Below are positions 11,894 to 63,746 of a stretch of DNA of 64,000 nucleotides, in pieces; position 1 is the first letter of the stretch; each line of letters opens with the position of its first letter. Origin of the DNA: Acidimicrobiia bacterium (GTDB taxonomy: Bacteria > Actinomycetota > Acidimicrobiia > IMCC26256 > PALSA-555). The position numbers and the translations under genes are program-made. Location: positions 1-64,000 of the forward strand of contig DASZJD010000029.1 of assembly GCA_035948415.1 (NCBI GenBank). Reading direction: 5' to 3'. The notes under the pieces are model-generated. The model did no database searches. It had not been told where the DNA came from and saw only the letters and a program-made list of their open reading frames with translations.

Positions 11894-11899
11894 TACCCT
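11894..11899 (+). promoter_or_regulatory. -10 element for the second amidohydrolase
   Basis: TACCCT lies 33 nt before ATG 11933 in the 58-nt gap after the deacylase gene. It fits TANNNT and leaves a short leader containing the GGAGGG ribosome binding site (11919-11924). Confidence 0.4.
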
Positions 11900-11932
11900 G
11901 AGCGCCGGGAATCGAACGTGGAGGGCCGCCGC

Positions 11933-13464: not shown

Positions 13465-13482
13465 GCCGCCCGTCGACTCAGG
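13460..13482. terminator. Hairpin across convergent stop codons
   Basis: CCTGAG and CTCAGG (13460-13465 and 13477-13482) form a 6-bp stem with an 11-nt loop. The stop codons of the membrane-protein gene and the convergent amidohydrolase lie in the two arms. No U-tract is present, so this is a candidate bidirectional terminator of the GC-rich kind only. Confidence 0.35.
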
Positions 13483-22816: not shown

Positions 22817-22853
22817 GACGGCATGCGGACGGTCGCCGCCGAGGCGCCGCCCG

Positions 22854-41087: not shown

Positions 41088-42259
41088 CGGTCGCGGGCGA
41101 GCACGGCGAGGCTCCCGTCCCCGAAGTCGCCCCAGCCGGTGACGACGCCGAGCTCGGCGTCGGTCACCTGGGCTGGACCCGCCTCCCACCGCAGCTGGCG
41201 CGTCGCCTCGACCACGTGGTTCAGCCCCCACACGTGGCCCTGCGAGAGCAGGCCGCCGTGGGTGTTGAGCGGATAGCGGCCGCCGAGCTCGATCGTCCCG
41301 CCGCGCACGAAGTCGGCGGCCTCACCCGGGCCGCAGAGCCCGAGCGCCTCGAGCTCCAGGAGCACGATGTACGTGAAGCAGTCGTAGACCTCGAGGAAGT
41401 CGGCGTCGCGGGGCCGTACCCCGGCCGCGGCGAAGGCCTCGGGCGCCGCGTACGAGAGCCCGATGCGGAGCGGGTCGGCCCGGTTCGGGATGTCGTCGGC
41501 CGGGTACGGGTGCCCCTCGGCCGCGGCGAGCACAACCGCCGGCGGGTGGACGAGGTCCCGGGCCCGTTCGAGGCTCGTGACCACGTAGGCGGCCGCGGCG
41601 TCGGTCTCGAGGCAGCAATCGAAGAGCCGGAAGGGCTCCGAGATGAGCCGCGACCCGAGGTACTCGTCCATCGTGAGCTCGCGTCCCCGCATGAGCGCCC
41701 GCTCGTTGAGCTGGGCGTGCCGGCGACAGGTCAGCGCCACCGTTCCGGCGGCCTCGTCGGGCACGCCGAACTGCTGCTTGTAGCGCATCGCGATCCAGGC
41801 GTAGAGCTGCACCGGCGACATCGCGCCGTACGGCCGGTAGTAGTCGACCGCGGTGTCGGCGACCGAGGTCGCCAGCCACGTGTGCCGGGGGCGTCGACCG
41901 CCGGGTCTGGGCCGGAAGATGGAGAACCCGTTCCAGCCCACGGTGACGAGCACCGCGGTGGCGATGCCGCGGGTGACGGCCCCGACCGCGTGCTGGAGCG
42001 CCGCCACCGGGCTCGCGCCGCCCATCATCACGGTCGTGGCGAGCCGCAGGTTCTCGATGCCGAGGTTGGCGGCGAGCTCCTCGGCGGTGGTGAAGCCGGC
42101 CGGCGGGAGGATGCCGTCGATGTCGGCACGCTCGAGCCCGGCGTCGTCGATCGCGGCCAGCGAGGCGTCGAGCATGAGCTCGAACGGCAGCCGGTCCGAG
42201 CCTCGCACGTAGTCCGTCTCGGCGACGCCGACGATCGCCGCCTGATCACGAAGCGCCAC
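41084..42259 (-). CDS. Thiolase-like protein (SCP-x/Ltp2 type) without nucleophilic Cys
   Basis: A 391-residue thiolase-fold protein. The N-terminal [11 protein letters not shown], the [12 protein letters not shown] segment and [18 protein letters not shown] (about 334-351, with the conserved His residues) place it in the lipid-transfer/SCP-x branch. Where condensing thiolases have the acylated Cys the sequence reads [11 protein letters not shown], so it is not a classical thiolase. A tyrosine in EVYDCFT is conserved with the second copy at 54036. GTG 42259 lies 9 nt after a minus-strand TAGCCT. With DUF35 it probably forms a retro-aldolase. Confidence 0.9.
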
Positions 42260-46515: not shown

Positions 46516-46980
46516 GTGGGTCGGTTTCCACGCGACGAGATCGAAGGCGCGTTCCGGCACTTCCAGGAGGCGGCCGACCGGTCGGCGAAGAGCGGGGACT
46601 GGCGCGAGTGGTCGGAGTGCTTCACCGAGGACGCCGACTACTACGAGCACCACTACGGGAAGATGCACGGCCGTGAGGCCATCTACCAGTGGATCCAGTC
46701 GACGATGGCCGACCCGAACGTCGCCGACATGCGCAACTTCCCGATCGACTGGTACGTGATCGACGAGGACCGGGGCTGGGTCCTCTGCTCGGTGTGGAAC
46801 GAGATGGACGACCCCGGCGACGGGTCGCTCCACCGTGAGTACAACTGGACGATGCTCCACTACGCCGGCGACGGGCGGTTCTCCTACGAGGAGGACATGT
46901 ACAACCCGGTGGAGTTCGGGCGCATGGTCCAGGGCTGGCACGAGGCCAAGGACCGGCTGGCGGGCTCCCCCAAAAAATAG
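46516..46980 (+). CDS. SnoaL/NTF2-like domain protein
   Basis: A 154-residue cone-fold protein of the SnoaL/NTF2 group, which includes ketosteroid isomerases, dehydratases and cyclases. WSECFTEDADYYEHHYGKMHGREAI is too long to quote in full; its core DADYYEHH (about 39-46) holds polar residues at the pocket mouth, and NWTMLHYAGDGRF forms the last strands. GTG 46516 is supported by GAGAGGAG. It may isomerise or hydrate a steroid- or polyketide-like compound, or only bind one. Its stop codon forms part of the operator-like site upstream of the next gene. Confidence 0.85.
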   Translation: MGRFPRDEIEGAFRHFQEAADRSAKSGDWREWSECFTEDADYYEHHYGKMHGREAIYQWIQSTMADPNVADMRNFPIDWYVIDEDRGWVLCSVWNEMDDPGDGSLHREYNWTMLHYAGDGRFSYEEDMYNPVEFGRMVQGWHEAKDRLAGSPKK

Positions 46981-47048: not shown

Positions 47049-48239
47049 ATGGAGTTCGGGATCTTCAACAGCCTCTACACGCCGCACCAGGCGTTCGAGG
47101 CCGAGGCCGACCAGTGGGCCGTCGAGGCCCAGCGGCTCCGCAACGAGGTCGCCTGGACCCGGGCCGCCGACCGGGCCGGCTTCAAGTACACGTGGGCGAC
47201 CGAGCACCACTTCCTCACCGAGTACTCGCACCTGTCGTCGAACGAGGGCTTCCTCGGCTACATGGCGGGGGTGACCGAGCGCATCCACCTCGGCAGCGGC
47301 ATCTTCAACATCACCCCGCCGGTCTGCCACCCGGCGCGCGTGGCCGAGAAGGTGGCGATGCTCGACCACCTCTCGGGCGGCCGCTTCGAGTTCGGAGTCG
47401 GCCGCGGGTCCTCGTCGACCGAGCAGCGGGGCTTCGGGATCCTCGACCCCGAGGAGACGAAGGCGATGGTCGACGAGGTCCTCCCGGAGTTCAAGCGGAT
47501 GTGGCGGGAGAACGAGTACAGCTTCTCGGGCCGCTACTTCTCGATGCCGCCGCGCAACGTGCTGCCGAAGCCGCTGAGCGACCCGCACCCGCCGATGTGG
47601 ATCGCCGCCGGCAACCCGGGCACGTTCGAGAAGGCGGCCCGCATGGGCCTCGGGGTCCTGTGCTTCACGACCGGCTCACCGGAGACCCTGAAGCCGCTCA
47701 TCGAGATCTACAAGACCACGATCGAGGACGCCGAGCCGGTCGGCGAGTACGTCAACAACAACGTGATGGTCACGAGTCAGATGCTCTGCCTCGAGGACGG
47801 GCAGCGGGCGCGGGACATCGCCTGCTCGATGCACGGCAGCTACCAGAACAGCCTCGTGTTCCACTACCTCGACACGTTCCCGAAGCCGCCGGGGCTCCCG
47901 GCCTGGCCCGACCTGATCCCCGAGCCCACGCCCGACCTGCTCGAGCAGAGCATCGCCAACCACCTCGTGATGATCGGGACCCCGGACGAGGTCCGCAAGT
48001 CGGTGCAGGACTACGAGGGCACCGGCGCCGACCAGGTCGTGTTCGGGATGCTCTCGACCACGATGCCGATCGAGGTCGCGCTGGAGGCGGTCGAGACGTT
48101 CGGGAAGCACATCGTCCCGGAGTTCGACCGCGACCCGGTCCACTCCACCACCCGCCAGCGCGAGGCTTACGTGGCCGAGCGGGGTCCGCACGACAAGCGG
48201 TCGCTCGGGCGCGCGCCCGACCAGGTCCCGGTCACGTAG
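47049..48239 (+). CDS. LLM-class flavin monooxygenase (luciferase-like)
   Basis: A 396-residue protein, longer than the other LLM members and closer to the luciferase alpha/beta-type monooxygenases. ATEHHFLTEYSHLSSN (about 56-71), RIHLGSGIFNITPPVCHP, GRFEFGVGRGSSSTEQRGFG (about 116-135) and PPMWIAAGNP are signatures. It could use FMNH2 with O2 or F420. ATG 47049 has GGGGGAG upstream. It is followed after 5 nt by an SDR and has a canonical promoter with a KstR-like site. A role in steroid or lipid breakdown is inferred. Confidence 0.92.
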   Translation: MEFGIFNSLYTPHQAFEAEADQWAVEAQRLRNEVAWTRAADRAGFKYTWATEHHFLTEYSHLSSNEGFLGYMAGVTERIHLGSGIFNITPPVCHPARVAEKVAMLDHLSGGRFEFGVGRGSSSTEQRGFGILDPEETKAMVDEVLPEFKRMWRENEYSFSGRYFSMPPRNVLPKPLSDPHPPMWIAAGNPGTFEKAARMGLGVLCFTTGSPETLKPLIEIYKTTIEDAEPVGEYVNNNVMVTSQMLCLEDGQRARDIACSMHGSYQNSLVFHYLDTFPKPPGLPAWPDLIPEPTPDLLEQSIANHLVMIGTPDEVRKSVQDYEGTGADQVVFGMLSTTMPIEVALEAVETFGKHIVPEFDRDPVHSTTRQREAYVAERGPHDKRSLGRAPDQVPVT

Positions 48240-48244
48240 ACCCG

Positions 48245-49084
48245 GTGGGCGAGCTCGACGGCCGCGTCGCGCTCGTGACCGGCGCCAGCCGCGGCATCGG
48301 CGCCGGCATCGCCCGCCGCTTCGCCGCCGAGGGCGCCCGCGTGGCGCTGACGGCGCGGACCCTCGACCCCGAGCCTGGCGCGCCGCTCGCGGGGTCGCTG
48401 CGCGAGACAGCGGCGGCCATCCAGGACGCGGGCGGCGAGGCGCTGGCGGTGCAGGCCGACCTCGCCGATCGCGAGGACCGCGTCCGCGTCGTCCCCGAGG
48501 TCGAGGCCGCGATTGGCCCCGTCGACGTGCTCGTCAACAACGCCGCCGCCGCCTTCTACCTCCCGAACGCCGACATCTCGCTGAAGCGTCGGCTCCTGAC
48601 CTTCGAGCTCAACGTGCAGGCACCGGTCGACCTGGCCCAGGCCGTGCTCCCGGCGATGCGGGCGCACCGTCGAGGCTGGATCGTGAACATCTCGAGCGCC
48701 ACGTCGAGGCACCCGGCCGGCCCGCCCTTCGACCCCGGCTTCAAGCTCGGGTTCACCAGCACGACGTACGGCGCCTCGAAGGCCGCGCTCGAGCGCTGCA
48801 CCACGGGGCTGGCGGCCGAGGTCTACGGCGACGGGATCGCGGTGAACAGCCTCGCCCCCGTCGCCGCCGTCCGCACGCCCGGCGCCGAGGCCCTCGTCGG
48901 CGACGTGCTGGACGCCAACCCGCGGATCGTCGAGCCCCTCGAGCTCTTCGTCGAGGCCGCGCTCGTCCTCGCCACCGCCGACCCGACCCGGCTCACCGGT
49001 CGGATCTGCTACTCGCGCCCGCTGCTCGAGGAGCTCGGCCGTGACTACCGGGGCCTCGACGGCCGCCCGCGCCTCGCGTCGTGA
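48245..49084 (+). CDS. Short-chain dehydrogenase/reductase (SDR)
   Basis: A 279-residue SDR. TGASRGIGAGIARRF (about 14-28) is the cofactor loop, TARTLDPE suggests NADP preference (Arg after the second strand), NNAAAAF replaces the usual NNAG, and YGASK (about 178-182) with Ser in NISSATS is catalytic. A longer loop (RHPAGPPFDPGFKLGF) precedes the Tyr and may gate the pocket. GTG 48245 is 5 nt after the LLM stop. Substrate unknown. Confidence 0.92.
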   Translation: MGELDGRVALVTGASRGIGAGIARRFAAEGARVALTARTLDPEPGAPLAGSLRETAAAIQDAGGEALAVQADLADREDRVRVVPEVEAAIGPVDVLVNNAAAAFYLPNADISLKRRLLTFELNVQAPVDLAQAVLPAMRAHRRGWIVNISSATSRHPAGPPFDPGFKLGFTSTTYGASKAALERCTTGLAAEVYGDGIAVNSLAPVAAVRTPGAEALVGDVLDANPRIVEPLELFVEAALVLATADPTRLTGRICYSRPLLEELGRDYRGLDGRPRLAS

Positions 49085-51705: not shown

Positions 51706-54036
51706 GTGCTCGAGGACATCCGGGTCGTCGACTGCTCGACCGACATCGCCGGGCCGTACTGCACGAAGCTCCTCGCCGACGCCGGCGCTGATGTCGTGAA
51801 GGTGGAGCCCCGCGCCGGCGGCGATCCGCTGCGCTCGTGGGGCTCCGGCGCGCTCTTCGAGTTCCTGAACACCTCGAAGCGCTCGGTCACGCTGCCGACC
51901 GACGATCCCGCCTTCGCCGAGCTGTGCCGCGCCGCCGACGTGCTCGTGGAGCCGCCGCCCACCGGCCCCCTCGACGTCCGGCGCCTCCGCGACGGCCACC
52001 CCGCCCTTGTCGTGGCCTCGATCACGCCCTTCGGGCTCGACGGCCCCTGGGCGGGCTGGGCGGCCACGGAGTTCACGCTCCAGGCCTGGTGCGGTTCGAC
52101 CGGCTCCCGAGGCCTCCCCGAGACGCCGCCGGTGGCGGCCGGGGGCCGCATCGGCGAGTGGATGGCGGGCACCTACGCCGCGGTCGCCGTCGCCGCCGCG
52201 GTGCGGCGCGCCCGTCGCACCGGCCGCGGCGAGCACATCGACGTGGCGACCCTCGACGCCATGGCGGTCTCGATGAACACCTACACGTCGGTGTTCGCCG
52301 AGTTCCTGGGCTGGCCGCCCCTCCGGCGCCCGACGCGCACGATCGAGATCCCGTCGATCGAGCCCGCCGCCGACGGCTACGTGGCCTTCACGACCAACAG
52401 CGCCCAGCAGTTCGCCGACTTCATGGTGCTGATCGAGCGGCCCGACCTGGTCGAGGACCGGGAGCTCGCCAAGCACCTCGGCCGCTTCAAGCGCCGCCGC
52501 GAGGTCCTCGCCATGATCCACGACTTCACCACCCGGCACACGACCGCCGACCTGCTCGAGCGGGCGGCGCTGCTGCGGATCCCGAGCGGGCCGGTCGGCA
52601 ACGGCGAGACGGTGACGACCTTCGACCACTTCGTGGAACGGAAGGTGTTCGTCGAGAACCCGGGCCGGCGGTTCGTGCAGCCGCGGATCCCCTACCGCGT
52701 CGGCGGCGTGGAGGCGCGCCCGTTCACGCCCGCGCCGGCGCTCGGGGCCCACGACGGCAGCGTCCCGTGGCCGCCCCGCGCGCGCGTGCCGGCGAGCGAC
52801 GAGGACGAGCTGCCGCTGGACGGGATCCGGATCGTCGACTGCACGGCGTGGTGGGCGGGACCGGCCGCGACGCACGCGCTGGGCTGCCTCGGCGCCGACG
52901 TCATCAAGGTCGAGTCGGTGGGGCGCCCGGACCTCATGCGGTACACGAGCACCCGGCGCCCGTCGGAGGATCAGTGGTGGGAGTGGGGACCGCTGTTCCA
53001 CGGGGCCAACAACAGCAAGCGCGCGATCACGCTCGACCTCACGACGCCCGAAGGCGTCGAGCTCTTCGAGCACCTGCTCCGGACCGCCGACGTCCTGCTC
53101 GAGAACTTCACCCCGAGGGTCATGGAGCAGTTCGGCCTCACGTGGGAGCGGGTGCACGCGCTGAACGAGACGCTCACGATGGTGCGGCTGCCGGCCTACG
53201 GCCTCGACGGCCCGTGGCGAGACCGCACCGGCTTTGCCCAGACGATGGAGGGGATTACCGGGATGGCGTGGGTCACCGGCCGTCCGGAGGACCCGCCGCT
53301 GCTCCCCCGCGGCGCGTGCGACCCGCTGGCGGCGATGCACGCCGTGTTCGCGACGCTCCTCGCGCTCGACGAGCGGGACCGCAGCGGCGAGGGGCGCCTC
53401 GTCGAGGCCCCCATGATCGAGGCGGCCCTGAACATGGCCGCCGAGCAGGTCGTCGAGTTCTCGGCCTCCGGCCGCCGCCTCGAGCGCACCGGCAACCGAG
53501 GCCCCGGCGCCGCGCCCCAGGGCGTCTACCCCGCCGCCGGCGACGAGGAGTGGCTGGCGCTGGCGGTCGCCACCGACGAGCAGTGGGAGCGGCTGCGGAC
53601 CGAGCTCGACGACCCCGCCTGGGCCCGCGATCCCGCCCTCGCCACCGCCGCCGGTCGGCGAGCCGCGCACGACGCGCTCGACACGCAGCTGACGGCGTGG
53701 TGCGCGACCCAGGACGCCCGGGCCGTCGCCGAGCGCCTCGCCGCCGCCGGGGTGCCGGCCGGGTACGTGATCGACGCCCGCGACATCGCCCACAACCCGC
53801 AGATGCTCCACCGCGGCCTCTTCGAGGTGGAGGAGCACCCCGTGACGGGCTCCCACCCGATCCCGACGCTGCCGTTCCGGTTCCGAGACCGGGCCCGCGG
53901 GTGGCTGCGCCGACCGGCGCCGACGCTCGGCCAGCACAACGACGACGTGCTCGGCGGGCTGCTCGGCCTCGGACCGGACGACCTGGCGGCGCTGCGCGCG
54001 GCGGGCGTCATCGGCGAGCGGCCTCGGGGCATGTGA
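51706..54036 (+). CDS. Tandem-domain CaiB/BaiF family III CoA-transferase
   Basis: A 776-residue protein holding two family III CoA-transferase domains in a row. Domain 1 (about 1-350) starts LEDIRVVDCSTDIAGPYCTK; domain 2 (about 370-770) starts LDGIRIVDCTAWWAGPAATH, with ADVIKVE in both. Domain 2 keeps the FAQTMEGITGMAW region where the catalytic Asp would lie but has no clear Asp there; domain 1 has ATEFTLQAWCGSTG, with Glu. The nucleophile may therefore be altered. GTG 51706 has GGAGGAA 9 nt upstream. First gene of a four-gene operon with thiolase-like and DUF35 genes. Confidence 0.9.
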   Translation: MLEDIRVVDCSTDIAGPYCTKLLADAGADVVKVEPRAGGDPLRSWGSGALFEFLNTSKRSVTLPTDDPAFAELCRAADVLVEPPPTGPLDVRRLRDGHPALVVASITPFGLDGPWAGWAATEFTLQAWCGSTGSRGLPETPPVAAGGRIGEWMAGTYAAVAVAAAVRRARRTGRGEHIDVATLDAMAVSMNTYTSVFAEFLGWPPLRRPTRTIEIPSIEPAADGYVAFTTNSAQQFADFMVLIERPDLVEDRELAKHLGRFKRRREVLAMIHDFTTRHTTADLLERAALLRIPSGPVGNGETVTTFDHFVERKVFVENPGRRFVQPRIPYRVGGVEARPFTPAPALGAHDGSVPWPPRARVPASDEDELPLDGIRIVDCTAWWAGPAATHALGCLGADVIKVESVGRPDLMRYTSTRRPSEDQWWEWGPLFHGANNSKRAITLDLTTPEGVELFEHLLRTADVLLENFTPRVMEQFGLTWERVHALNETLTMVRLPAYGLDGPWRDRTGFAQTMEGITGMAWVTGRPEDPPLLPRGACDPLAAMHAVFATLLALDERDRSGEGRLVEAPMIEAALNMAAEQVVEFSASGRRLERTGNRGPGAAPQGVYPAAGDEEWLALAVATDEQWERLRTELDDPAWARDPALATAAGRRAAHDALDTQLTAWCATQDARAVAERLAAAGVPAGYVIDARDIAHNPQMLHRGLFEVEEHPVTGSHPIPTLPFRFRDRARGWLRRPAPTLGQHNDDVLGGLLGLGPDDLAALRAAGVIGERPRGM

Positions 54037-55238
54037 TGGCGGCGTCGGACACGGACTGGGGCTGGGCCACCGAGTACGAGGACGTCCGCGGCGCGGTCGC
54101 GCTGTGCGGGGTCGGCGAGTCCGAGCACACGAAGGCGTCGGGGCGCACGCCGACCCAGATCCTCGCCCAGGCGGTTGAGCGCGCGCTCGACGACGCCGGG
54201 CTGTCGCCCGCCGACATCGACGGCCTCATGTACGTGCCGTTCGGCGAGCAGTTCGACGTGGCGGCGTACCACCGGCACTTCGGCACCAGCCACGACATGT
54301 GGGAGTCCGCCGCCGGCGGCGGCATGCGGCAGGCCGCCAGCGCGCCGTACGACGCCGCGCTGGCGCTGCGCGACGGGAAGGCCCGGTACATCCTGAACTC
54401 GTTCGGGGTCGCGTGGGCGACGCAGCGGTCCGAGATGGTCGGCGGTCCGGGCCAGTCGCACGCCCAGGAGCAGTTCAAGCAGAACCTCGAGGTGCCGTTC
54501 GGCTGGTTCCCCCAGCCGGTCTACTTCGCCACCGTGGCCCGCCGTCACATGCACGAGTTCGGCACCACCCAGGAGCAGCTGGGCGCGGTGGCGGTGGCGT
54601 GTCGGCGGCACGCCAACCTCACGCCCGGTGCGGTCATGCACGACCGCCCGTTGACGATGGAGCAGTACCTCGCCTCGCGTCCGATCGTGGCGCCGTTCCG
54701 ACGCGAGGACTGCTGCCTCATCTCCGACGGCGGTGGCGCGTACATCATGACGACGCCCGAGCGGGCTCGCGACCTGCGGACACCGCTGGTGGAGCTCGCC
54801 GGCGTGGGCCTCGGGAACTCGGTGACCGGCACGCACTGGGCCGAGCAGCCCGCGTTCACGTCGACGCCGCAGGTGTTCGCCGCCCCGGTGGCGTTCCGGA
54901 TGGCGGGCCTGGCGCCGGCCGACGTCGACGTCTACACGTGCTACGACCCGTTCACGATCCACACGGTCATGCAGATCGAGGACAGCGGCTTCTGCGAGAA
55001 GGGCGGCGGGGGCGAGTTCGTGGCCGGCGACGCCCTGCACTTCGACGCCGGCCGGCTCCCGACCAACACCCACGGGGGGCTGCTCTCCCACGCCTACGTG
55101 CTCGGCATCGCCCACGTCGTCGAGGTGGTCCGCCAGCTGCGGGGCGAGGCGGCGGCGCAGGTCCCCGACGCGACCGTCGGCGTCTACGGCGGGTACACCG
55201 GGCCGCAGGCGGCGACGCTGATCCTGCGGCGAGGCTGA
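54036..55238 (+). CDS. Thiolase-like protein (SCP-x/Ltp2 type) without nucleophilic Cys
   Basis: A 400-residue thiolase-fold protein paralogous to the one at 41084. ALCGVGESEHTKAS starts it; CRRHANLTPGAVMHDRPLT and CYDPFTIHTVMQ (about 305-316) follow, then [19 protein letters not shown] near the end. The catalytic Cys position reads AAGGGMRQAAS, and the GHPxG motif has become HAYVLG, so it cannot act as a normal thiolase. ATG 54036 overlaps the CoA-transferase stop (TGATG). With the following DUF35 protein it likely makes an aldolase-type complex. Confidence 0.9.
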   Translation: MAASDTDWGWATEYEDVRGAVALCGVGESEHTKASGRTPTQILAQAVERALDDAGLSPADIDGLMYVPFGEQFDVAAYHRHFGTSHDMWESAAGGGMRQAASAPYDAALALRDGKARYILNSFGVAWATQRSEMVGGPGQSHAQEQFKQNLEVPFGWFPQPVYFATVARRHMHEFGTTQEQLGAVAVACRRHANLTPGAVMHDRPLTMEQYLASRPIVAPFRREDCCLISDGGGAYIMTTPERARDLRTPLVELAGVGLGNSVTGTHWAEQPAFTSTPQVFAAPVAFRMAGLAPADVDVYTCYDPFTIHTVMQIEDSGFCEKGGGGEFVAGDALHFDAGRLPTNTHGGLLSHAYVLGIAHVVEVVRQLRGEAAAQVPDATVGVYGGYTGPQAATLILRRG

Positions 55239-55240
55239 GG

Positions 55241-55669
55241 ATGCGACCCGAGTTCCCGCTGCCCGACACGACCTGGGCGCCGACGGCCGAGTTCTGGGCC
55301 GGCGCGGCGCGCCACGAGCTCCGCATCCCGCACTGCGGGCGGTGCGGCCGGGCCTGCTGGTACCCGCGGGAGCGGTGCCGCGACTGCGGCGGCTCGAGCT
55401 TCACGTGGCGCACCATGAGCGGTCGCGGGACCCTGTTCTCGTGGGTGGTGGTCACGCACGCGTTCCTGCCGCACTTCGGCGACCTGGTGCCGTTCGTGCC
55501 CGGGCTCGTCGCGCTCGACGAGGACCCGGCGGTGCGCGTCGCCACCCGGGTCGTGGACGTCGACCCCGACGCCCTCGCCTTCGACCTGCCCGTGCAGGTC
55601 ACGTTCCGCCCGATCAGCTTCGCCGGGGTCGAGGGCTCGGTCACCGCCCCGCTGTTCGTGCCGGCATGA
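55241..55669 (+). CDS. DUF35 OB-fold/zinc-ribbon acyl-CoA-associated protein
   Basis: A 142-residue partner protein. WAGAARHELRIPHC begins the helix and the zinc ribbon follows with CGRC and CRDC (about 31-49); the OB fold covers the rest, with SGRGTLFSWVVVTHAFLPHF and FDLPVQVTF. ATG 55241 lies 2 nt after the thiolase-like stop. Such proteins close the acyl-CoA tunnel of thiolase-like partners. Its stop overlaps the small membrane protein start (ATGA). Confidence 0.92.
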   Translation: MRPEFPLPDTTWAPTAEFWAGAARHELRIPHCGRCGRACWYPRERCRDCGGSSFTWRTMSGRGTLFSWVVVTHAFLPHFGDLVPFVPGLVALDEDPAVRVATRVVDVDPDALAFDLPVQVTFRPISFAGVEGSVTAPLFVPA

Positions 55670-55962
55670 GCGACCGCCGACCCGACACCTTCGTCCCGGT
55701 CGACGGGTTCTGGTGGGTGACGAACGCGGGCGGGATCGCGCTCACCGGCGTCCTCGCGGCGGCGACCGGGCGGCGGGGGCTCCGGTGGCTGTTCTGGGGC
55801 GCGGTCGCCACCCACGCCGTCGAGGCCGCGTACACGTACCGGGCGGCGCGGCGAGCCGGCTTCGGCCGGCGCGCCCCGCGGTGGGCGCTCCAGACGCTCG
55901 GCGTCGGGTTGCCGTCGCTGCGGGCGCTGCGGGCCGCCCGGCTGGAGGCCGAGGCTCAGTAG
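55666..55962 (+). CDS. Small DUF4499-like membrane protein
   Basis: A 98-residue protein with two or three hydrophobic segments (about 18-35, 41-57 and a weaker one near 74-86). HAVEAAYTYRAARRAG and WALQTLGVGLPSL (about 73-85) match the pattern of DUF4499, the family of eukaryotic TMEM254; I hold this with moderate certainty. ATG 55666 overlaps the DUF35 stop by 4 nt, so it is the last gene of the CoA-transferase/thiolase-like operon. It may anchor that complex at the membrane. Its end overlaps the convergent dehydrogenase by 7 bp. Confidence 0.7.
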   Translation: MSDRRPDTFVPVDGFWWVTNAGGIALTGVLAAATGRRGLRWLFWGAVATHAVEAAYTYRAARRAGFGRRAPRWALQTLGVGLPSLRALRAARLEAEAQ

Positions 55963-56885
55963 CCGGCGTCGACGTCGACGACGCCCTCGAGCGGCTCCCC
56001 GGCGCGATACCGCCGCAGGTTGTCGATGAACGTCGCCACCAGCAGCTCGCTGGCGCCGGGCATGCTCCAGGAGATGTGCGGGCTCAATCGGACCTGGGGG
56101 TGCGAGTACATCCAGTGGCCGTCGGGCAGGGGCTCGGGCGACACCGCGTCGAGCGAGGCCATCGCCACCTGGCCTCGATCGAGCGCGGCGCGCAGCGCGT
56201 CCTGGTCGACGAGCGAGCCCCGGGCGATGTTCACGAGGTGCACCCCGGGCTTCACCGCCGCGAACGCGGCCTCGTCGAGCAGGTGATGGGTCTCCGGCGT
56301 CGCCGGCGCGGTGAGGACCAGGTGGTCGGCGACGGCCAGGACCTCGGCGAGCGATCCGGCCGCCTCGACGCCGGGTACCGGCGACCGACGGTCGGTGCGA
56401 CGCCGGGCCACGATCCGCATCTCGAAGGGCCGGGCTCGCGCCGCGACCGCGGCGCCGATGCCTCCGAGCCCGACGAGGCCGAGCGTCCGGCCGGCGAGGC
56501 CGCCGAGCTCGGCGGCGTGCCACTGGGCCGGGCCCTCGGTGATCCAGGCCTCGGGGAGGCGCTTCTCGAAGGCGAGCAGCTGGGCCAGCACCCACTCGGC
56601 GATCGGCACCGCGCTGGCGCCGCGCGAGCAGGTCAGGGTCCGCTCCCCCACCAGCGCCAGCGGGAAGCGGTCGACGCCGGTGCCCATGGTGTGGATCCAG
56701 CGGACACCGCGGCTGAGCACGTGCTCGAGGTTCGGCAGGTCCCACGGGATCGTGAAGAGCACCTCGCCGTCGACGCCCGGCTCGAGCTCGCCGTCGCCGG
56801 GGATCTCGAGGACCTCGACCCCGGGGACGGCCTGTCGCACCTGGTCGGCGACCGGGCCGCGGACGTGGCTCAGGATCCGCGTCAC
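55956..56885 (-). CDS. D-2-hydroxyacid dehydrogenase-family protein
   Basis: A 309-residue NAD-dependent D-isomer 2-hydroxyacid dehydrogenase, reducing 2-oxoacids. VGLGGIGAAVAARA (about 143-156) binds NAD, NIARGSLVD (about 222-230) carries the substrate-binding Arg and the late SPHISW the catalytic His; a Glu is near DAVSPEPLP. SRGASAVPIAEWVLA is the hinge. GTG 56885 overlaps the amidohydrolase stop (GTGA). Last gene of the five-gene minus operon. Substrate unknown. Confidence 0.93.
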   Translation of the reverse strand: MTRILSHVRGPVADQVRQAVPGVEVLEIPGDGELEPGVDGEVLFTIPWDLPNLEHVLSRGVRWIHTMGTGVDRFPLALVGERTLTCSRGASAVPIAEWVLAQLLAFEKRLPEAWITEGPAQWHAAELGGLAGRTLGLVGLGGIGAAVAARARPFEMRIVARRRTDRRSPVPGVEAAGSLAEVLAVADHLVLTAPATPETHHLLDEAAFAAVKPGVHLVNIARGSLVDQDALRAALDRGQVAMASLDAVSPEPLPDGHWMYSHPQVRLSPHISWSMPGASELLVATFIDNLRRYRAGEPLEGVVDVDAGY

Positions 56886-57694
56886 GGCAGCTCCGGCCAG
56901 AGCGCGCCGGCGGTGCCCGAGAGGACGCGGGCGCGATCGTCGTCGCCGAGCTTCGACGCCGCGTGCCGCGCGTAGTCGGCCAGCTCGACGTACGGACGGT
57001 CGTGGGTCTGGCTGTAGTCCGAGCCCCACATGAGGCGCCGGGCGCCGAAGCGGGCCACGAGCTCGGGGAGCAGCTCCCGCACGTCGCCGTGGCCGGCGGC
57101 GGCGTCGAGGGCGATCGTCGACACCTTCAGGGCCACGTTCGGGAACGGGACCAGCGCCAGGAGATCGTCGGGCAGGCCGCGCGCGAAGTCGGCGAAGCCG
57201 CAGTGGTCGAGCGCGAGCGGGAGCGACGGCAGCCGCGGCAGCGCGTCGACGAGCGCCGGCAGGTGCTCGGCGAGCAGGGTCACGACCACCGGCACCCGCT
57301 GCGCGGCCGCCACCGACCAGACGGCGCGGGGCTCGGCGACCCCGCCGTCGTGGATCGCGACCCAGCGCAGCCCGCGCGCGCCCGCGCGCAGCAGCTGCTC
57401 CGCCGCCCCCGCGGGGTCTGCGCCGGCCAGGTCGACGCACGCGACGGCGGTGCAGCGGCCCAACGCGCTCGCCGCGGCGTCGAGCGTGTAGCGGTTGTCG
57501 AACCGGTAGGCGCTGATGGCCTGCACGAGCACGGCGGCGCGCACGGCGGCGTCGTCGAGGAGCCCGAGGAGGCGCTCGATCGAGCACGGGTCCTCCCGGT
57601 ACCAGGGGGCGGTGACGCCGCTCGGGTCGAGCGGGTAGCGCGCCTCGTCGTCGGAGACGACGTGCACGTGCGTGTCGACGAGCGGCACGGTCAC
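56882..57694 (-). CDS. Amidohydro_2 family hydrolase with full HxH motif
   Basis: A 270-residue TIM-barrel amidohydrolase of the lactonase/2-pyrone-dicarboxylate hydrolase type, shorter than the other members in the window. LVDTHVHV (5-12) is an intact DxHxH metal motif, LALDHCGFADF supplies another His and RLMWGSDYSQTH the late Asp. GTG 57694 lies 10 nt after the SDR stop. It may open a lactone ring formed by the neighbouring dehydrogenases. Substrate unknown. Confidence 0.92.
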   Translation of the reverse strand: MTVPLVDTHVHVVSDDEARYPLDPSGVTAPWYREDPCSIERLLGLLDDAAVRAAVLVQAISAYRFDNRYTLDAAASALGRCTAVACVDLAGADPAGAAEQLLRAGARGLRWVAIHDGGVAEPRAVWSVAAAQRVPVVVTLLAEHLPALVDALPRLPSLPLALDHCGFADFARGLPDDLLALVPFPNVALKVSTIALDAAAGHGDVRELLPELVARFGARRLMWGSDYSQTHDRPYVELADYARHAASKLGDDDRARVLSGTAGALWPELP

Positions 57695-57704
57695 GGCGGC
57701 GCCG

Positions 57705-58631
57705 TCACGGTCGGAACCCGTCGAGCATGCGGTCGAGGTCGCCGCGCCCGGCCGGGAAGGGCGTCCACGGGCCGTCGGCCATGATCGTGTCCCAGTGGCT
57801 GCGCACGGACTCGGGCGTGAGCGGCCGGCCCCGCCACCCGTCGTTGACGGCGACGGTGACACGCCCGACGTAGCCGCCGCCGACGCTGAAGCACTCGCCG
57901 GTCACGGTGCAGCGCTCGTGCACGAGCCACGCCACGACCGGGGCGACCTCGTCGACCGAGAGCCAGTCGTGGAGGGCCGGGGACGCCGGGATGGGCCCGA
58001 AGCCGCCGGGTCGGGTCTTGGCGCACGGCGCCACGACGTTCACCGTGATGCCGTGCTCGGCGCCCTCGAGGGCGAGCGCCCGAGTGAAGCCGACGACGCC
58101 GAGCTTGGTCGCGGCGTAGCCGGTCATGTGCGGGACGCCCCAGAGCCCGGCACCGGAGGACAGGTTCAGCACCCGTCCGGAGCCGGCGGTGACGAGGGTC
58201 GGCCAGGCCGCCCGCGTGACGTGGAACGCCCCGCCCAGCTGCGACGACAGCTCGTCGTCGAGCAGCCGCGGGCCGTAGTCCGCGAACGGGGCCTGCCGCA
58301 CCACGCCGGCGTTGTTGACGACGACGTCGAGCCGGCCGAAGGTGTCGAGCGCGGTCTGGACGATCGCGGCGGCGCCCTCCGGCGTCGTCACGCTGTCGGT
58401 GCTGAGCGCCGCCGCCCCGCCGGCGGCTCGGATCTCCGCGACGACGTCCTCGGCCGGGTTGCGGCTCGGGGGGTCACCGGTCCCGTCGGTGTCGCTGATC
58501 GCCACGCCGAGGTCGTTGACGACGACCTGGGCGCCCCGCGACGCCAAGAGGAGGGCGTAGGCGCGGCCGAGGTTGCGCCCCGCCCCGGTCACCACCGCCA
58601 CCCGGTCGTCCCAACGCAGCTCGGTGCTCAG
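57705..58631 (-). CDS. SDR of the multifunctional-enzyme (hydroxyacyl-CoA dehydrogenase) type
   Basis: A protein of about 308 residues, an SDR of the branch that includes 3-hydroxyacyl-CoA dehydrogenases (FabG-like/MFE type): TGAGRNLGRAYALLLASRGA (about 15-34), VVNDLG, NNAGVVRQ and YAATK. The C-terminal extension (WRGRPLTPESVRSHWDTI) is typical of that branch. The start is uncertain: the best placed codon is CTG 58631, overlapping the upstream stop as CTGA; no ATG or GTG lies before the first strand. Substrate probably a hydroxyacyl-CoA. Confidence 0.85.
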   Translation of the reverse strand: MSTELRWDDRVAVVTGAGRNLGRAYALLLASRGAQVVVNDLGVAISDTDGTGDPPSRNPAEDVVAEIRAAGGAAALSTDSVTTPEGAAAIVQTALDTFGRLDVVVNNAGVVRQAPFADYGPRLLDDELSSQLGGAFHVTRAAWPTLVTAGSGRVLNLSSGAGLWGVPHMTGYAATKLGVVGFTRALALEGAEHGITVNVVAPCAKTRPGGFGPIPASPALHDWLSVDEVAPVVAWLVHERCTVTGECFSVGGGYVGRVTVAVNDGWRGRPLTPESVRSHWDTIMADGPWTPFPAGRGDLDRMLDGFRP

Positions 58632-59785
58632 CGCAGCGTGTCCGGGATGTGCTCGAGGCGGTAGAGCGCCTTGCAGTTTCCGTGGAGCATCTGGCGCACC
58701 TCGTCGGCGGGAAGGCCGCGGAAGTCGCGCTCGATCGTCACCCGGTTGTTCGGCCAGTCCGTGCCCGTGTGCGGGTAGTCCGTCGACCAGAGCAGGTGGT
58801 CGAGGTTCATGCGGTGGCGGAGCTCGATCCCGACGGTGTCGATCATGAACGTGGCCCAGAAGTTCCGGTGGAAGATCCGGCTCGGCATGGTCCGCATCTG
58901 CTCGACGCCGCCCGTGAACCACCGGTAGCGCAGGAACATGTCGTCCACCTGCTCGAGCAGCGTCGGGATCCAGCCGATGTTCGCCTCGACGAGCAGCAGC
59001 TTCAGCTCGGTGAACCGCTCGAAGATCCCGGAGAAGATCAGGTCGCAGACCACGGGGATGGTGTGGGCGCCGGCCTTGCTGGCGCCGGCGACGCCCATGA
59101 ACGCCAGGGTGTCGAGCGGCGGCGGCTGGCCGCTGTGCCCCTTCAGGAAGCTGCCGATGTGGACCGCGACCGGGAGGTCGGCGTCCTGCGCGAAGGACCA
59201 GAACCGGTCGTCCTCGGACGACGCGTCCAGGGTGCCGTTCGGGAAGGAGGAGACCACGACGCCCCGGTGGCCGAGCCCGAGGGCCCGCTCGGTCTCGGCG
59301 ATGGCGTCGTCGACCCCGGTGGTGGGCAGGATCGCCTGCCCGATGAGCCGACCGTCCGACGCGTCGCAGAACTCGGCCAGCCAGTCGTTGTACGCGCGCA
59401 CGCAGGCCCGCTGCAGCTCGGGCTCGGCCCCGTACACCTTGGCGCCGGACAGGGTCACGCTCGGGTAGAGGACCTGGGCGTAGATGCCGTCGGCGTCGAG
59501 GTCGGCGAGCCGGGCCTTGGCGTCGAACGACCCGGGTCGCATCGCCTCGTAGGTCATCCCGGCGGGTCGGTACTGGAGGTACGAGAGGCCGGCGGTGGCG
59601 GTGAGCCCGACCGGGCGCATGCTCTTGCCGTCGTCGAACGACCACACGTCGCCGTCGCCGACCCGGACGACCTTCGGTGCCCGGTCGCGCAGCCGGGACG
59701 GGACTCGGGTCTGCCAGGTGTCGGGCGGCTCGTTGACGTGGGCGTCGGCGTCGATGATCGGGTAGTCGATGCTCGCCACGTCCAT
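58628..59785 (-). CDS. Amidohydro_2 family protein
   Basis: A 385-residue TIM-barrel amidohydrolase. IIDADAHVNEPPDTW (about 10-24) gives a DxDxH metal motif, CVRAYNDWLAEFCDAS, HIGSFLKGH and the C-terminal WSTDYPHTGTDWPNNR follow. It resembles the adjacent gene at 59902 closely in layout, so the two are probably a tandem duplication. ATG 59785 is the most likely start, but GTG codons a few triplets earlier cannot be excluded; no clear ribosome binding site is seen. Substrate unknown. Confidence 0.88.
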   Translation of the reverse strand: MDVASIDYPIIDADAHVNEPPDTWQTRVPSRLRDRAPKVVRVGDGDVWSFDDGKSMRPVGLTATAGLSYLQYRPAGMTYEAMRPGSFDAKARLADLDADGIYAQVLYPSVTLSGAKVYGAEPELQRACVRAYNDWLAEFCDASDGRLIGQAILPTTGVDDAIAETERALGLGHRGVVVSSFPNGTLDASSEDDRFWSFAQDADLPVAVHIGSFLKGHSGQPPPLDTLAFMGVAGASKAGAHTIPVVCDLIFSGIFERFTELKLLLVEANIGWIPTLLEQVDDMFLRYRWFTGGVEQMRTMPSRIFHRNFWATFMIDTVGIELRHRMNLDHLLWSTDYPHTGTDWPNNRVTIERDFRGLPADEVRQMLHGNCKALYRLEHIPDTLR

Positions 59786-59901
59786 GAACGGCCCGGCCAC
59801 GCCGGCCACGCTCGCGCTTGGCGCTCGCGCCCGCAACCGCAGGTGCCCCCGAGAACCGGCGGTCGCGGCGGGCCGTCGGCGCCTGGACGCGGAGCCGGCG
59901 G

Positions 59902-61077
59902 TCAGGCGGGGGCGAGCGTGCGGTCGGGCTGCGCCACGCGGTAGAGGGCGGCGGCGTTGTCCCAGAGGATGCGGCGGCGCACGTCGTCGGGCTGGCCGGC
60001 CAGGCCGGCCTCGATCTTCTCGCGCACGTTGCCGTACAGGCAGATCGGGTGCGGGTAGTCGGTCTCGAAGAGGAGCCGGTCGGCGCCGACGGCGTCGATG
60101 ACGCCGGCGACGGTGCGCTCCTCGAAGAACCAGCAGCCGTAGACCTGACGGCGGAAGTAGTCGCTCGGCTTCATCTCGAAGTAGGGCCGCTCGAGCCACA
60201 CCTTGCCGTCCTCGAAGGCGTAGTCGGCGGCGTCGAGGATGAACGGGATGAACCCGATGCCGCTCTCGACCGACACGAACCGCAGCCGGGGGTACCGGGC
60301 CAGCACCCCCGACATCAGCAGGTCGACGATCTGGGTACCGTTGTCGAGGAACAGCTGGACCGAGGTGCTCACCCGCGTCGCGCCGACGCCGTGGGCCTTG
60401 ATGCGGGCCGGGGCGAAGCCGCTCTCGAAGTCGCCGCTGCCGATGTGGAACGAGATGGGCAGGTCGAGGTCCTGGACCGCGGCCCAGAACGGGTCCCAGT
60501 GGTGGTCGCCGAGGTACGGGAGGTGGTAGCGCTGGGGCTCGCCGGTGAAGAGCACGCCTCGGTGCCCGAGGTCGGCGCACCGGCGGACCTCGTCGACGGC
60601 GGCGTCGACGTCCCAGAACGGGGTGGCCGAGATCGCCAGGAGCCGACGCGAGTCGGCGGCGCACCACTCGATGAGGAAGTCGTTGTAGGCCCGCACGCAC
60701 GCCAGCATCAGCTCGGGGTCCTCGAGGGCCAGGAACTGCTGGTTGCCGAAGCCGGCCACGTTCGGGTACAGCACCTGGGCCCACGCCCCGATCGAGTCCA
60801 GGTAGTCGAGGCGAGCGGGGGCCTGCCACGCCGCCGGGGGCACCTCGTCCATGTTCTTGGGACCGGCGGGGAACGGCTCCGGCCACCCGGCCACGGCGGT
60901 GAACCCGACCGGCACCAACGGCGTGCTGTCGGCGACGTGCCAGACGTCCCGGCCGCTGGCGTCCCGCTCGAGACGCGGCCCGCGCTCCCGGAGGCGCGGC
61001 GGGAGGCGCGCCGTCCACACGTCGGCGGGCTCGGTCACGTGCGCGTCGACGTCGATGACCCACTCGTGGCCCGTCAT
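59902..61077 (-). CDS. Amidohydro_2 family protein
   Basis: A 391-residue TIM-barrel amidohydrolase. VIDVDAHVTEPADVW (7-21) is again DxDxH; CVRAYNDFLIEWC, FHIGSGDFESG and LLFETDYPHPICLYGN follow. ATG 61077 has GGGAGGACC upstream and a minus-strand TACGGT (61109-61114) as probable -10. It leads the five-gene minus operon running to 55956, although a 116-nt gap follows it. Divergent from the SMP-30-like gene. Substrate unknown. Confidence 0.92.
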   Translation of the reverse strand: MTGHEWVIDVDAHVTEPADVWTARLPPRLRERGPRLERDASGRDVWHVADSTPLVPVGFTAVAGWPEPFPAGPKNMDEVPPAAWQAPARLDYLDSIGAWAQVLYPNVAGFGNQQFLALEDPELMLACVRAYNDFLIEWCAADSRRLLAISATPFWDVDAAVDEVRRCADLGHRGVLFTGEPQRYHLPYLGDHHWDPFWAAVQDLDLPISFHIGSGDFESGFAPARIKAHGVGATRVSTSVQLFLDNGTQIVDLLMSGVLARYPRLRFVSVESGIGFIPFILDAADYAFEDGKVWLERPYFEMKPSDYFRRQVYGCWFFEERTVAGVIDAVGADRLLFETDYPHPICLYGNVREKIEAGLAGQPDDVRRRILWDNAAALYRVAQPDRTLAPA

Positions 61078-61108
61078 CGGTCCTCCCGTCGGCGAGCTCG
61101 TGCGCCCG

Positions 61109-61170: not shown

Positions 61171-62100
61171 ATGGCCGGCCCGCCTGAGGTTCGAGAGCTG
61201 GCCCACGGCCTGCAGTTCCCGGAGGGGCCGGTGGCGCGTCCCGACGGCACCGCGCTTGTGGTGGAGATCCGGCGGGGCACGCTGAGCCGCGTCGGCGCCG
61301 ACGGCACGGTGGACGTGGTGGCCGAGCTCGGCGGTGGCCCGAACGGCGCCGCCATCGGACCCGACGGGGCCTGCTACGTGGTGAACAACGGCGGGTTCTC
61401 GTGGACGACGGTCGGCGAGCTCACGATCCCGGTCGATCTCGCGACGGGCTCGAATCAGCCCGCGGGCTTCGAGGGCGGATGGGTCGAGCGCGTCGACCTC
61501 GCCACCGGCGAGCACCGCCAGCTCTACCGCGACTGCGACGGCCACGAGTTCCGGAGCCCGAACGACATCGTGTTCGACGCCGCCGGCGGCTTCTGGTTCA
61601 CGGACCTCGGCAAGACCCGCCCCCGCGACCTCGACAAGGGCGGGCTGTACTACGCGGCCCCGGACGGGACCTCGGTGACGTGCGCCGCGTACGGGCTGTT
61701 CGGCGCGAACGGGGTGGGGCTGGCCCCCGCCGGCGACCGGGTCTACGTCGCCGAGAGCTACACCGGGCGGCTCTGGGCCTGGGACCTCGAGGCCCCGGGA
61801 CGAGTCAAGCCGGGGGGCGGCGGGCCCGGCGGCGGCCGCTGCCTCGTCGCCACCACCGGCCACTTCGATTCCCTCGCCGTCGAGGAGGACGGGACCGTGG
61901 TCGTCGCGGCGATCACGCACGGGCTCTGCGTCGTCCGCCCCGACACCAGCTACGAGTACCTCGAGATGCCCGACGCGTTCACGACCAACATCTGCTTCGC
62001 GGGCGACGACCGGCGCACCGCGCTCGTCACCCTGTCGGGCAGCGGTCGGCTCGTCGCCCTCGACTGGCCCCGGCCCGGACTCGCGCTCGCCGACTCGTGA
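61171..62100 (+). CDS. SMP-30/gluconolactonase-like beta-propeller protein
   Basis: A 309-residue six-bladed beta-propeller of the SMP-30/strictosidine-synthase-like group, metal-dependent lactonases. FPEGPVARPDG (about 16-26) has the metal-binding Glu, GGPNGAAIGPDG (about 54-65) the second site, FRSPNDIVFDAAGGFWFTDLG (abbreviated SPNDIVFD, about 129-136) the Asn, and a late GHFDSLAVEEDG the Asp. ATG 61171 has GGAGGGAG upstream. Its stop overlaps the next ligase start (GTGA). It probably opens a lactone before CoA activation. Confidence 0.92.
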   Translation: MAGPPEVRELAHGLQFPEGPVARPDGTALVVEIRRGTLSRVGADGTVDVVAELGGGPNGAAIGPDGACYVVNNGGFSWTTVGELTIPVDLATGSNQPAGFEGGWVERVDLATGEHRQLYRDCDGHEFRSPNDIVFDAAGGFWFTDLGKTRPRDLDKGGLYYAAPDGTSVTCAAYGLFGANGVGLAPAGDRVYVAESYTGRLWAWDLEAPGRVKPGGGGPGGGRCLVATTGHFDSLAVEEDGTVVVAAITHGLCVVRPDTSYEYLEMPDAFTTNICFAGDDRRTALVTLSGSGRLVALDWPRPGLALADS

Positions 62101-63746
62101 CGTCGATCGCCGAGTTCGTCCGCGCCCGGGCGAGTGACGGCGACCGCGTCGCGCTGCGATTCGAGGATCAGGCCTGGACCTGGGCGGAGTACGTGCGCGC
62201 GTGCGCGCAGCGCGCCGCCTACCTCGACGAGACCCTCGACCCGGGTCGTCCCCCGCACGTCGGGGTGCTGCTCGACAACGTGCCCGAGTTCCCACGCTGG
62301 CTCGGTGCGGCCGCGCTGGCGGGCGACGTGATCGTGGGCGTCAACCCGACCCGCCGTGGTGCCGAGCTCGCCCGCGACGTGGCGCACGCCGACTGCCAGC
62401 TCCTCGTGACCGAGCGGCGCTACCTCGACCTGCTGGACGGCCTCGACCTCGGCCTCGGGCCCGACCGGATCCTCGTCGCCGAGGAGCTCGAGGCGCCGCT
62501 CGCGCCCCACCGGGACGCGCCGCTCACGGAGCACCCGGTCGACGAGCACGGCATCTACCTGCTGCTGTTCACCTCCGGGACGAGCGGGGCGCCGAAGGCC
62601 TGCATCCTCTCGCAGGGCCGCCTGGCGTCGATGAGCGGACGCCTCGCCGAGATGATGCGCTTCTCGGCCGACGACGTCCTCTACCAGGCCATGCCGCTCT
62701 TCCACTCGAACGCCATCATCACCGGCTTCGCGCCGTGGCTGATCAGCGGGGCCACGTGTGCGCTCCGTCGCAAGTTCTCGGCCTCCGGGTTCCTGCCCGA
62801 CGTCCGCCGGTACGGGGTCACGTACTTCAACTACGTGGGCAAGCCGCTCTCGTACATCCTCGCCACGCCCGAGCAGGCGGACGACGCCGACAACCCGCTC
62901 ACCCGCGTGTTCGGGAACGAGGCCGCCGACCTCGACATCGAGCGGTTCTCGAAGCGCTTCGGGGTCCCCGTCATCGACGGCTACGGCTCCACCGAGGGGG
63001 GCGCCAACATCAACCGCACGCCCGACATGCCGAGGGGCGCGCTCGGCGTGGGTCCCGACGGCACCGTGATCCTCGACCCCGTCACCGGCGAGGAGCGCCC
63101 CCCAGCCCGCTTCGACGACCAGGGCCACCTCGTGAACCCGGACGAGGCGATCGGCGAGATCGTGAACAAGAAGGGCGCGGCCACGTTCGAGGGCTACTAC
63201 AAGAACGACGAGGCGAACGCCACGCGGGTCCGGGACGGGTACTACTGGACCGGAGACCTCGGCTATCGCGACGAGCGGGGCTACTTCTACTTCGCCGGAC
63301 GCGACTTCGAGTGGCTCCGTGTCGACGGCGAGAACTTCGCCGCCGCGCCGGTCGAGCGGGTCCTGGCCCGACACCCCGACGTCGTGCTGGCGGCGGTCTA
63401 CGCCGTCCCCGACGAGGAGGTCGGGGACCAGGTCATGGCGGCGCTGCACCTCCGACCCGGGGCGACGTTCGACCCCGGCGGCTTCGACCGCTTCCTGGCC
63501 GCCCAGGCCGACCTCGGCACGAAGTGGTCACCGCGCTACGTGCGGGTGACGCCCGCGCTCCCGGTGACCGAGACCCAGAAGGTCCTGAAGCGGGTCCTAC
63601 GCCGGCAGCGGTGGGACGTCGACGACCCGGTCTTCTGGCGCCCCCGTCGGGGCGAGCCGCTGCGCCGGATGACCGCTCGGGACCGCGACGACCTCCGGGC
63701 CCGCTTCGAGGCCCGCCAGCGGCTCGACCAGCTCGACCGGGCCTGA
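62097..63746 (+). CDS. AMP-binding acyl-CoA ligase (FadD17/very-long-chain type)
   Basis: A 549-residue ANL ligase. LFTSGTSGAPKACILSQG (about 157-174) is the phosphate loop, DGYGSTEGGANINRT the A5 region, YYWTGDLGYRDERGYFYFAG the ribose segment (YWTGDLG) and the C-terminal TETQKVLKRVL contains the catalytic Lys. PLFHSNAIITGFAPWL and the FGNEAADLD segment resemble mycobacterial FadD17/FATP-like ligases that act on long or steroid-derived acids. GTG 62097 is coupled to the lactonase gene by a 4-nt overlap. Confidence 0.93.
   Translation: MTSIAEFVRARASDGDRVALRFEDQAWTWAEYVRACAQRAAYLDETLDPGRPPHVGVLLDNVPEFPRWLGAAALAGDVIVGVNPTRRGAELARDVAHADCQLLVTERRYLDLLDGLDLGLGPDRILVAEELEAPLAPHRDAPLTEHPVDEHGIYLLLFTSGTSGAPKACILSQGRLASMSGRLAEMMRFSADDVLYQAMPLFHSNAIITGFAPWLISGATCALRRKFSASGFLPDVRRYGVTYFNYVGKPLSYILATPEQADDADNPLTRVFGNEAADLDIERFSKRFGVPVIDGYGSTEGGANINRTPDMPRGALGVGPDGTVILDPVTGEERPPARFDDQGHLVNPDEAIGEIVNKKGAATFEGYYKNDEANATRVRDGYYWTGDLGYRDERGYFYFAGRDFEWLRVDGENFAAAPVERVLARHPDVVLAAVYAVPDEEVGDQVMAALHLRPGATFDPGGFDRFLAAQADLGTKWSPRYVRVTPALPVTETQKVLKRVLRRQRWDVDDPVFWRPRRGEPLRRMTARDRDDLRARFEARQRLDQLDRA

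Follow-up and report, generated by a model that had tools for sequence, protein, structure and literature searches.

A tandem CoA-transferase, a thiolase-like/DUF35 pair and a PtmU3-like protein in Acidimicrobiia: a candidate cassette for oxygen-dependent carbon-carbon cleavage

What can a tandem coenzyme A (CoA) transferase accomplish in one operon with a thiolase-like protein, a DUF35 protein and a small TMEM254 protein? This question is raised by positions 51706-55962 of a 64,000-nucleotide stretch of contig DASZJD010000029.1 from an Acidimicrobiia bacterium (assembly GCA_035948415.1), a stretch that we call the window. The original prediction, made from the letters alone, combined the four proteins into one membrane-anchored complex. 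We consider that a fifth protein, an amidohydrolase-superfamily member encoded at 58628-59809, is a conserved partner which that prediction overlooked. With this partner, the predicted function of the module is CoA loading, O2-dependent beta-hydroxylation and retro-aldol cleavage of a CoA thioester, a reading based on sequence to which we give an even chance.

The aldolase pair and the fused CoA-transferase

The thiolase-like protein (54036-55238, + strand, 400 amino acids; Pfam Thiolase_C_1) has 4u4e and Ltp2 (6ok1_A) as its closest solved relatives. The position of the nucleophilic Cys of thiolases is occupied by Gly-Gly-Gly at residues 94-96, as in about 49 of 55 aligned sequences, and no Cys is conserved there. 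Two tyrosines are invariant in all 55 sequences: Tyr303 in a YDPF motif (codon 54942-54944) and Tyr354 (codon 55095-55097), which align with Ltp2 Tyr294, the catalytic base, and Ltp2 Tyr344, the acid (PMC12329534). Because the thiolase nucleophile is missing and both catalytic tyrosines of Ltp2 are kept, the protein is predicted to be a retro-aldolase acting with DUF35, and the assignment of the pair to the retro-aldolase type in the original prediction is thereby supported. A separate YDHF paralogue of the source genome (contig C94) scores higher with Ltp2, so the protein is classed by its sequence as Ltp2-like rather than as an Ltp2 orthologue. A true thiolase, cleaving a 3-ketoacyl-CoA by thiolysis as BbsAB does with benzoylsuccinyl-CoA, would have the same fold and could be expected beside a BbsEF-like CoA-transferase; however, the glycines at the nucleophile position, the invariant tyrosine pair, and scores for Ltp2 and 4u4e that are far above that for BbsB make this explanation very improbable.

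The DUF35 protein (55241-55669, + strand, 142 amino acids) consists of a ChsH2-type zinc ribbon and an OB fold (Pfam PF12172, zf-ChsH2, and PF01796, OB_ChsH2_C), and its relatives in the PDB are 9myr_B, 6esq and 6ok1_B. Its zinc site, C-x2-C-x10-C-x2-C, spans residues 32-49 (positions 55334-55387), and the cysteines are kept in nearly all of 25 aligned sequences. DUF35 is encoded by the next gene after the thiolase-like gene in 54 of 60 loci, and two Rhodococcus plasmids encode natural single-chain DUF35-thiolase fusions (L201:7487-9142 and L203:7532-9193). Given the homologous structures and the Rhodococcus fusion, the association of the aldolase with DUF35 is well grounded, as no other pairing among the four proteins is. 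In the Rhodococcus fusions, the second catalytic Tyr appears to be replaced by Arg. An apparent fusion in genome G005 (L075) was discarded, as a run of N joins two frames. The window also holds a second thiolase-like/DUF35 pair (40671-42259, - strand), about 37% identical to the first, which adjoins a luciferase-like protein and an acyl-CoA synthetase.

The first gene of the operon (51706-54036, + strand) encodes a family III (CaiB/BaiF) CoA-transferase of 776 amino acids with two matches to Pfam PF02515 (CoA_transf_3), which bears out the proposal that it is a tandem protein. The N-terminal half is BbsE-like and has Glu151 (codon 52156-52158) at the catalytic Asp position in 19 of 21 module orthologues; BbsE likewise lacks Asp there. 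The C-terminal half is BbsF-like and carries the catalytic Asp539 (codon 53320-53322) in 21 of 21, aligned with BbsF Asp178, the CoA-bearing residue in 9fol. The closest solved relative of this half is BbsF of 9fn0, and the AlphaFold model of the whole protein (pTM 0.93) has the BbsF chain of 9fn0 as its best Foldseek match (TM 0.94 on the target). To judge from sequence and model, the protein is a fused counterpart of BbsE and BbsF of anaerobic toluene degradation. The bbs operon couples the two-subunit family III CoA-transferase BbsEF to the thiolase/DUF35 pair BbsAB (PMC10818641). Because such genes are already joined there, the pairing of transferase and thiolase/DUF35 genes has a precedent, and the original view of the set as a combination not known as a described system is not supported. 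BbsEF loads benzylsuccinate using succinyl-CoA, which the BbsAB thiolase also yields (PMC10818641), and this analogy suggests similar CoA recycling in the module.

To follow the association beyond the window, GTDB genomes were scanned for the same thiolase-like clade, whose members are mostly 53-89% identical before identity drops to about 40% or less for other paralogues. The scan yielded 66 loci, found in Acidimicrobiia, Myxococcota/'Deltaproteobacteria' and Binatota as well as in cultured gammaproteobacteria (Parahaliea and Sediminihaliea); neighbors were counted in the 34 loci with enough flanking sequence (the well-flanked loci). A tandem CoA-transferase lies within five genes of the aldolase in 19 of these 34 loci, which belong to Actinomycetota, Myxococcota and Binatota. 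Most of the transferases near an aldolase fall into two clades (support 99/99 each), one of which unites the family of the window with Myxococcota and Binatota despite a different gene order. Within the source genome, three tandem transferases are complete (contigs C29, C37 and C23) and one is cut by a contig end (C114). The loci on C37 and C23 are two further complete sets of transferase, ARO-type amidohydrolase (an oxygenase type introduced below), DUF35 and thiolase-like genes. Chance proximity of unrelated catabolic genes has to be considered, because the genome abounds in both enzyme types, with 23 domain matches for CoA-transferases and 44 for amidohydrolases. However, each of the four tandem transferases has one of the 17 DUF35 genes no more than 2.5 kb away, for which the chance is about 2e-6, and the association is seen in at least three phyla and persists where the gene order has changed; we find this explanation scarcely credible.

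Two side observations concern these loci. On C114 (L184:3-4757), acyl-CoA dehydrogenase genes come after the cut transferase, together with a gene for a 321-amino-acid DUF35-containing protein, possibly a further variant of the module. An Acidimicrobiia-type locus is also borne by a metagenome-assembled genome titled Bifidobacterium breve (L095, CAMDCC010000146.1), a name that is probably wrong for this record.

A PtmU3-like candidate oxygenase

The protein encoded at 58628-59809 (- strand) belongs to the PF04909 amidohydrolase superfamily, and its best PDB matches are PtmU3 (6omp, 3e-44) and DitZ (8uyr, 3e-40). PtmU3 acts on CoA-bound diterpenoids as a dinuclear beta-hydroxylase (PMC7782822), and the oxygenase group that contains it has been named AROs (PMC7782822, PMC10811679). 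AibH2 and SfbO are further amidohydrolase-related dinuclear oxygenases. All six dinuclear ligands are present, namely Asp22, His24, His217, Glu275, Asp344 and His347, in the pattern D-x-H, H, E, D-x2-H on the PF04909 fold, and they are conserved in the orthologues. We propose that this PtmU3/DitZ-like protein is a beta-hydroxylase. A second PtmU3/DitZ-like PF04909 protein (59902-61107, - strand) has the same six ligands. The window holds six PF04909 amidohydrolases (8981-14683 and 56882-61107), and a seventh lies at C29:65192; four of the PF04909 proteins of this region were aligned to PtmU3-type ligands, and all four carry the dinuclear-oxygenase set.

In other loci, orthologues of the 58628-59809 protein (64-86% identical) adjoin the aldolase or the CoA-transferase. 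Those that directly follow DUF35 are 64-69% identical and occur in Myxococcota, Binatota and relatives from the same order (G019, G052), and the orthologues in G024 and G034 stand beside the tandem transferase. The annotated plasmids of cultured bacteria offer a further view: among ten inspected neighborhoods of ARO-type homologues, five have a thiolase-like and/or DUF35 gene and five a CoA-transferase. The gene order in the Rhodococcus loci L201 and L203 is ARO-type amidohydrolase, small protein, DUF35-thiolase fusion and CaiB/BaiF transferase. A ferredoxin, which an oxygenase would require, is encoded near the ARO-type gene in two Streptomyces.

The small protein deserves separate mention. 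It has 72-81 amino acids and the motif DW.D.DLLTR, and it follows the ARO-type amidohydrolase in Rhodococcus (L201:7218-7439, L203:7211-7447). Further copies at L194:7119-7364, L196:7249-7467 and L197:7168-7392 extend the set, which covers Rhodococcus and Streptomyces. No Pfam match was obtained where the protein was tested; it is possibly an oxygenase component.

A retro-aldolase requires a beta-hydroxyl, and the source of this group separates our reading from its most serious alternative. A hydratase is found near the aldolase in only two of the 34 well-flanked loci. Because of this rarity, the ligands and the clustering, the PtmU3-like oxygenase is the best candidate for the source of the beta-hydroxyl. 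The alternative is an ordinary aldolase step fed by a dehydrogenase and a hydratase encoded elsewhere, as with Ltp2/ChsH2 and Sal/Shy, in which case the amidohydrolase would do another job, such as decarboxylation or hydrolysis. The characterized aldolase relatives all use a hydratase-made beta-hydroxyacyl-CoA (PMC12329534, PMC11321319), acyl-CoA dehydrogenases are encoded at 21902-23990 of the window, and MaoC genes accompany the amidohydrolase in one cultured locus (L200, Massilia). In view of the full ligand set, the PtmU3/DitZ relationship and the scarcity of nearby hydratases, we consider such a step doubtful, although it deserves to be kept in mind.

Several findings weigh against a PtmU3-like oxygenase working with the aldolase and the transferase. 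In the aldolase, the oxyanion His of the Ltp2 YDHF motif is Pro in 51 of 55 sequences and Cys in the other four, and the cost of replacing this His in Ltp2 is only about 14-fold (PMC12329534). An extra ligand of PtmU3, Glu313, is Gly in the 58628-59809 protein. Among the well-flanked loci, 24 of 34 lack a close amidohydrolase orthologue and 15 of 34 lack a tandem transferase close by; moreover, in genome G012 the transferase and the oxygenase have orthologues, whereas the aldolase has no close one. The amidohydrolases beside a large second transferase clade (L086) do not have the D-x-H ligands, and the oxygenase proposal, as far as sequence can tell, does not extend to that clade. Beside the window genes, neither a ferredoxin nor a reductase was noted. 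Finally, some of the amidohydrolase adjacency may be due to chance, because the source genome has 44 PF04909 matches.

TMEM254 and the question of a single complex

The last gene of the operon (55666-55962, + strand) encodes a TMEM254 family protein of 98 amino acids, which matches Pfam PF14934 with 46.8 bits (curated cut-off 23). The label DUF4499-like given by the original prediction fits this match, as we take PF14934 to be the former DUF4499. Four helices are predicted (AlphaFold mean pLDDT 92), and the fold gave no match against the PDB at E<=0.001. The literature on TMEM254/DUF4499 function contained just a listing as an uncharacterized three-helix protein. The protein is weakly hydrophobic, with a best 19-residue hydropathy of 1.28 (up to 2.36 in orthologues), and the membrane anchoring attributed to it is a tentative prediction.

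The four genes are closely joined. All four reading frames are intact; the transferase gene starts with GTG, preceded by GGAGGAA, and shares one base with the thiolase-like gene (TGATG), the DUF35 gene follows after a 2-base gap, and its end overlaps the TMEM254 gene by four bases (ATGA). The claim that the genes at 51706, 54036, 55241 and 55666 overlap or abut is therefore accurate. The order is not unique to this contig either: it is complete in five other genomes of the family of the window (G004, G006, G007, G008 and G011), in G009 of the same family it can be followed until the contig breaks off within the CoA-transferase gene, and the thiolase-DUF35-TMEM254 trio stands at contig ends in G001 and G003.

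Do the products of these genes assemble into one stable, membrane-anchored complex through which CoA and substrate are channeled? The translational overlaps and the order conserved in one family could be read in this way, and fusions of TMEM254 to another enzyme suggest a tethering ability: the domain is joined C-terminally to an F420H2-dependent quinone reductase domain at L019:4678-5481 and L027:8494-9300, and it directly follows a nitroreductase at L024:8784-9712. TMEM254 is possibly a general tether for redox enzymes. However, overlaps of one to four bases imply translational coupling and not a complex. TMEM254 accompanies the module in the family of the window only, and even there G005 keeps the CoA-transferase, thiolase-like protein and DUF35 without it. 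In G002 (L028:4569-7450), the CoA-transferase is directly followed by TMEM254, in a like neighborhood that also has SnoaL, luciferase-like, NUDIX and Gfo/Idh genes, and this genome (85% complete) has no aldolase, DUF35 or close amidohydrolase orthologue; the locus is a natural deletion that separates the parts of the module. The aldolase pair also occurs without the transferase at many loci, and known DUF35 complexes consist of aldolase and DUF35, with or without a hydratase, and contain no CoA-transferase (PMC12329534). Because TMEM254 is confined to one family and G002 lacks the aldolase pair, one four-protein complex is not supported, and we regard it as quite improbable. TMEM254 looks like a portable, lineage-specific accessory.

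The wider neighborhood is also conserved in the family of the window. Counterparts of the SnoaL-like protein (46516-46980), the luciferase-like monooxygenase (47049-48239) and the short-chain dehydrogenase/reductase (SDR; 48245-49084), all recognized by Pfam on the + strand, adjoin the module in relatives and are mostly 62-78% identical. An acyl-CoA synthetase (62097-63746, + strand) resembles the steroid-22-oyl-CoA synthetase CasI, with 657 bits against NCBIfam NF052587 (cut-off 900), and has orthologues near the module in L016, L020 and L107; it is possibly an alternative CoA-loading enzyme. This below-cut-off match is the sole hint of steroid catabolism, which we did not adopt as a certain role.

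Proposed mechanism and known systems

From the genes, their families, catalytic residues, conservation and clustering, all directly observed, we infer a series of reactions, their order, the electron supply and the kind of substrate. The tandem CoA-transferase, with one active site on Asp539, would move CoA from a donor acyl-CoA onto a carboxylic acid, the donor plausibly being made by the cleavage itself. The dinuclear oxygenase at 58628-59809 would then hydroxylate the carbon beta to the thioester with O2. The thiolase-like protein and DUF35 would split the bond between the alpha and beta carbons by a retro-aldol reaction, in which Tyr303 would deprotonate the beta-hydroxyl and Tyr354 would protonate the enolate, giving a carbonyl compound and a shortened acyl-CoA. 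TMEM254 perhaps holds the enzymes near the membrane or a hydrophobic substrate. The substrate is probably a bulky cyclic acid of the terpenoid or steroid type.

A synthetic role for the module should also be weighed, as DUF35/thiolase-like complexes with synthetic roles are known (6esq, 5m3k) and PtmU3 itself is biosynthetic (PMC7782822). The neighborhood, however, is of a catabolic type (SDRs, amidohydrolases, acyl-CoA synthetases, acyl-CoA dehydrogenases and CoA-transferases), and none of the nearby genes was recognized as encoding a synthase, terpene cyclase or carrier protein; a synthetic role is thus unlikely. Returning to cleavage, we tentatively extend the proposal to a general oxygen-dependent cassette for cutting C-C bonds, in which the oxygenase sets the beta-hydroxyl, the Ltp2-like aldolase/DUF35 pair cleaves, and the transferase passes CoA on from the product to the next substrate. 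The range of this cassette would take in Actinomycetota, Myxococcota, Binatota and cultured Rhodococcus, and this broader proposal is possible rather than likely.

Full-text literature searches returned no paper describing a tandem family III transferase with a thiolase-like/DUF35 aldolase and an ARO. Every part belongs to a known family, and the combination appears to be new. If the proposal is correct, it would explain how aerobic bacteria bypass the usual dehydrogenase/hydratase steps when they break hindered carbon skeletons: at a beta carbon that does not allow desaturation, the cassette would stand in for the dehydrogenase-hydratase-dehydrogenase part of beta-oxidation. The tandem CoA-transferase, PtmU3-like oxygenase, thiolase-like protein and DUF35 would together be a genomic signature for such pathways, biocatalysis would gain a new aldolase clade, and many genes annotated as 'amidohydrolase', 'acetyl-CoA acetyltransferase' or 'CoA transferase' could be reannotated.

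The module can be compared with known systems part by part. Its TMEM254 protein resembles the family in exceeding the curated cut-off and in being small and helical by prediction, and is distinguished by being bacterial and sitting in an aldolase operon; relatives elsewhere are fused to the F420H2-quinone reductase domain or adjoin a nitroreductase. The 58628-59809 and 59902-61107 proteins are like PtmU3 and DitZ in fold and in the six metal ligands, whereas the former has an aldolase/DUF35 pair and a tandem CoA-transferase in its gene cluster, and its activity is a predicted one. The aldolase shares with the steroid side-chain aldolases Ltp2-ChsH2 and Sal-Shy the thiolase fold without the thiolase cysteines, with Ltp2 the Tyr base of YDxF and the second Tyr, and with the Ltp2-ChsH2 type a DUF35 partner with a C4 zinc site. 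In contrast to the Ltp2/Sal aldolases, it has YDPF where Ltp2 has YDHF, its DUF35 partner stands alone without a MaoC hydratase, and it adjoins a tandem CoA-transferase. The transferase is like BbsEF in its two family III domains, one of which carries the catalytic Asp, and as in bbs it shares a locus with a thiolase-fold/DUF35 pair. It is BbsEF-like and not BbsEF, because it is one fused 776-amino-acid chain whereas BbsEF has two separate subunits. Compared with the bbs operon, no acyl-CoA dehydrogenase or hydratase (counterparts of BbsG and BbsH) lies beside the module, the partner of the transferase is an aldolase-type protein rather than a Cys thiolase, and the neighborhood is of the aerobic type.

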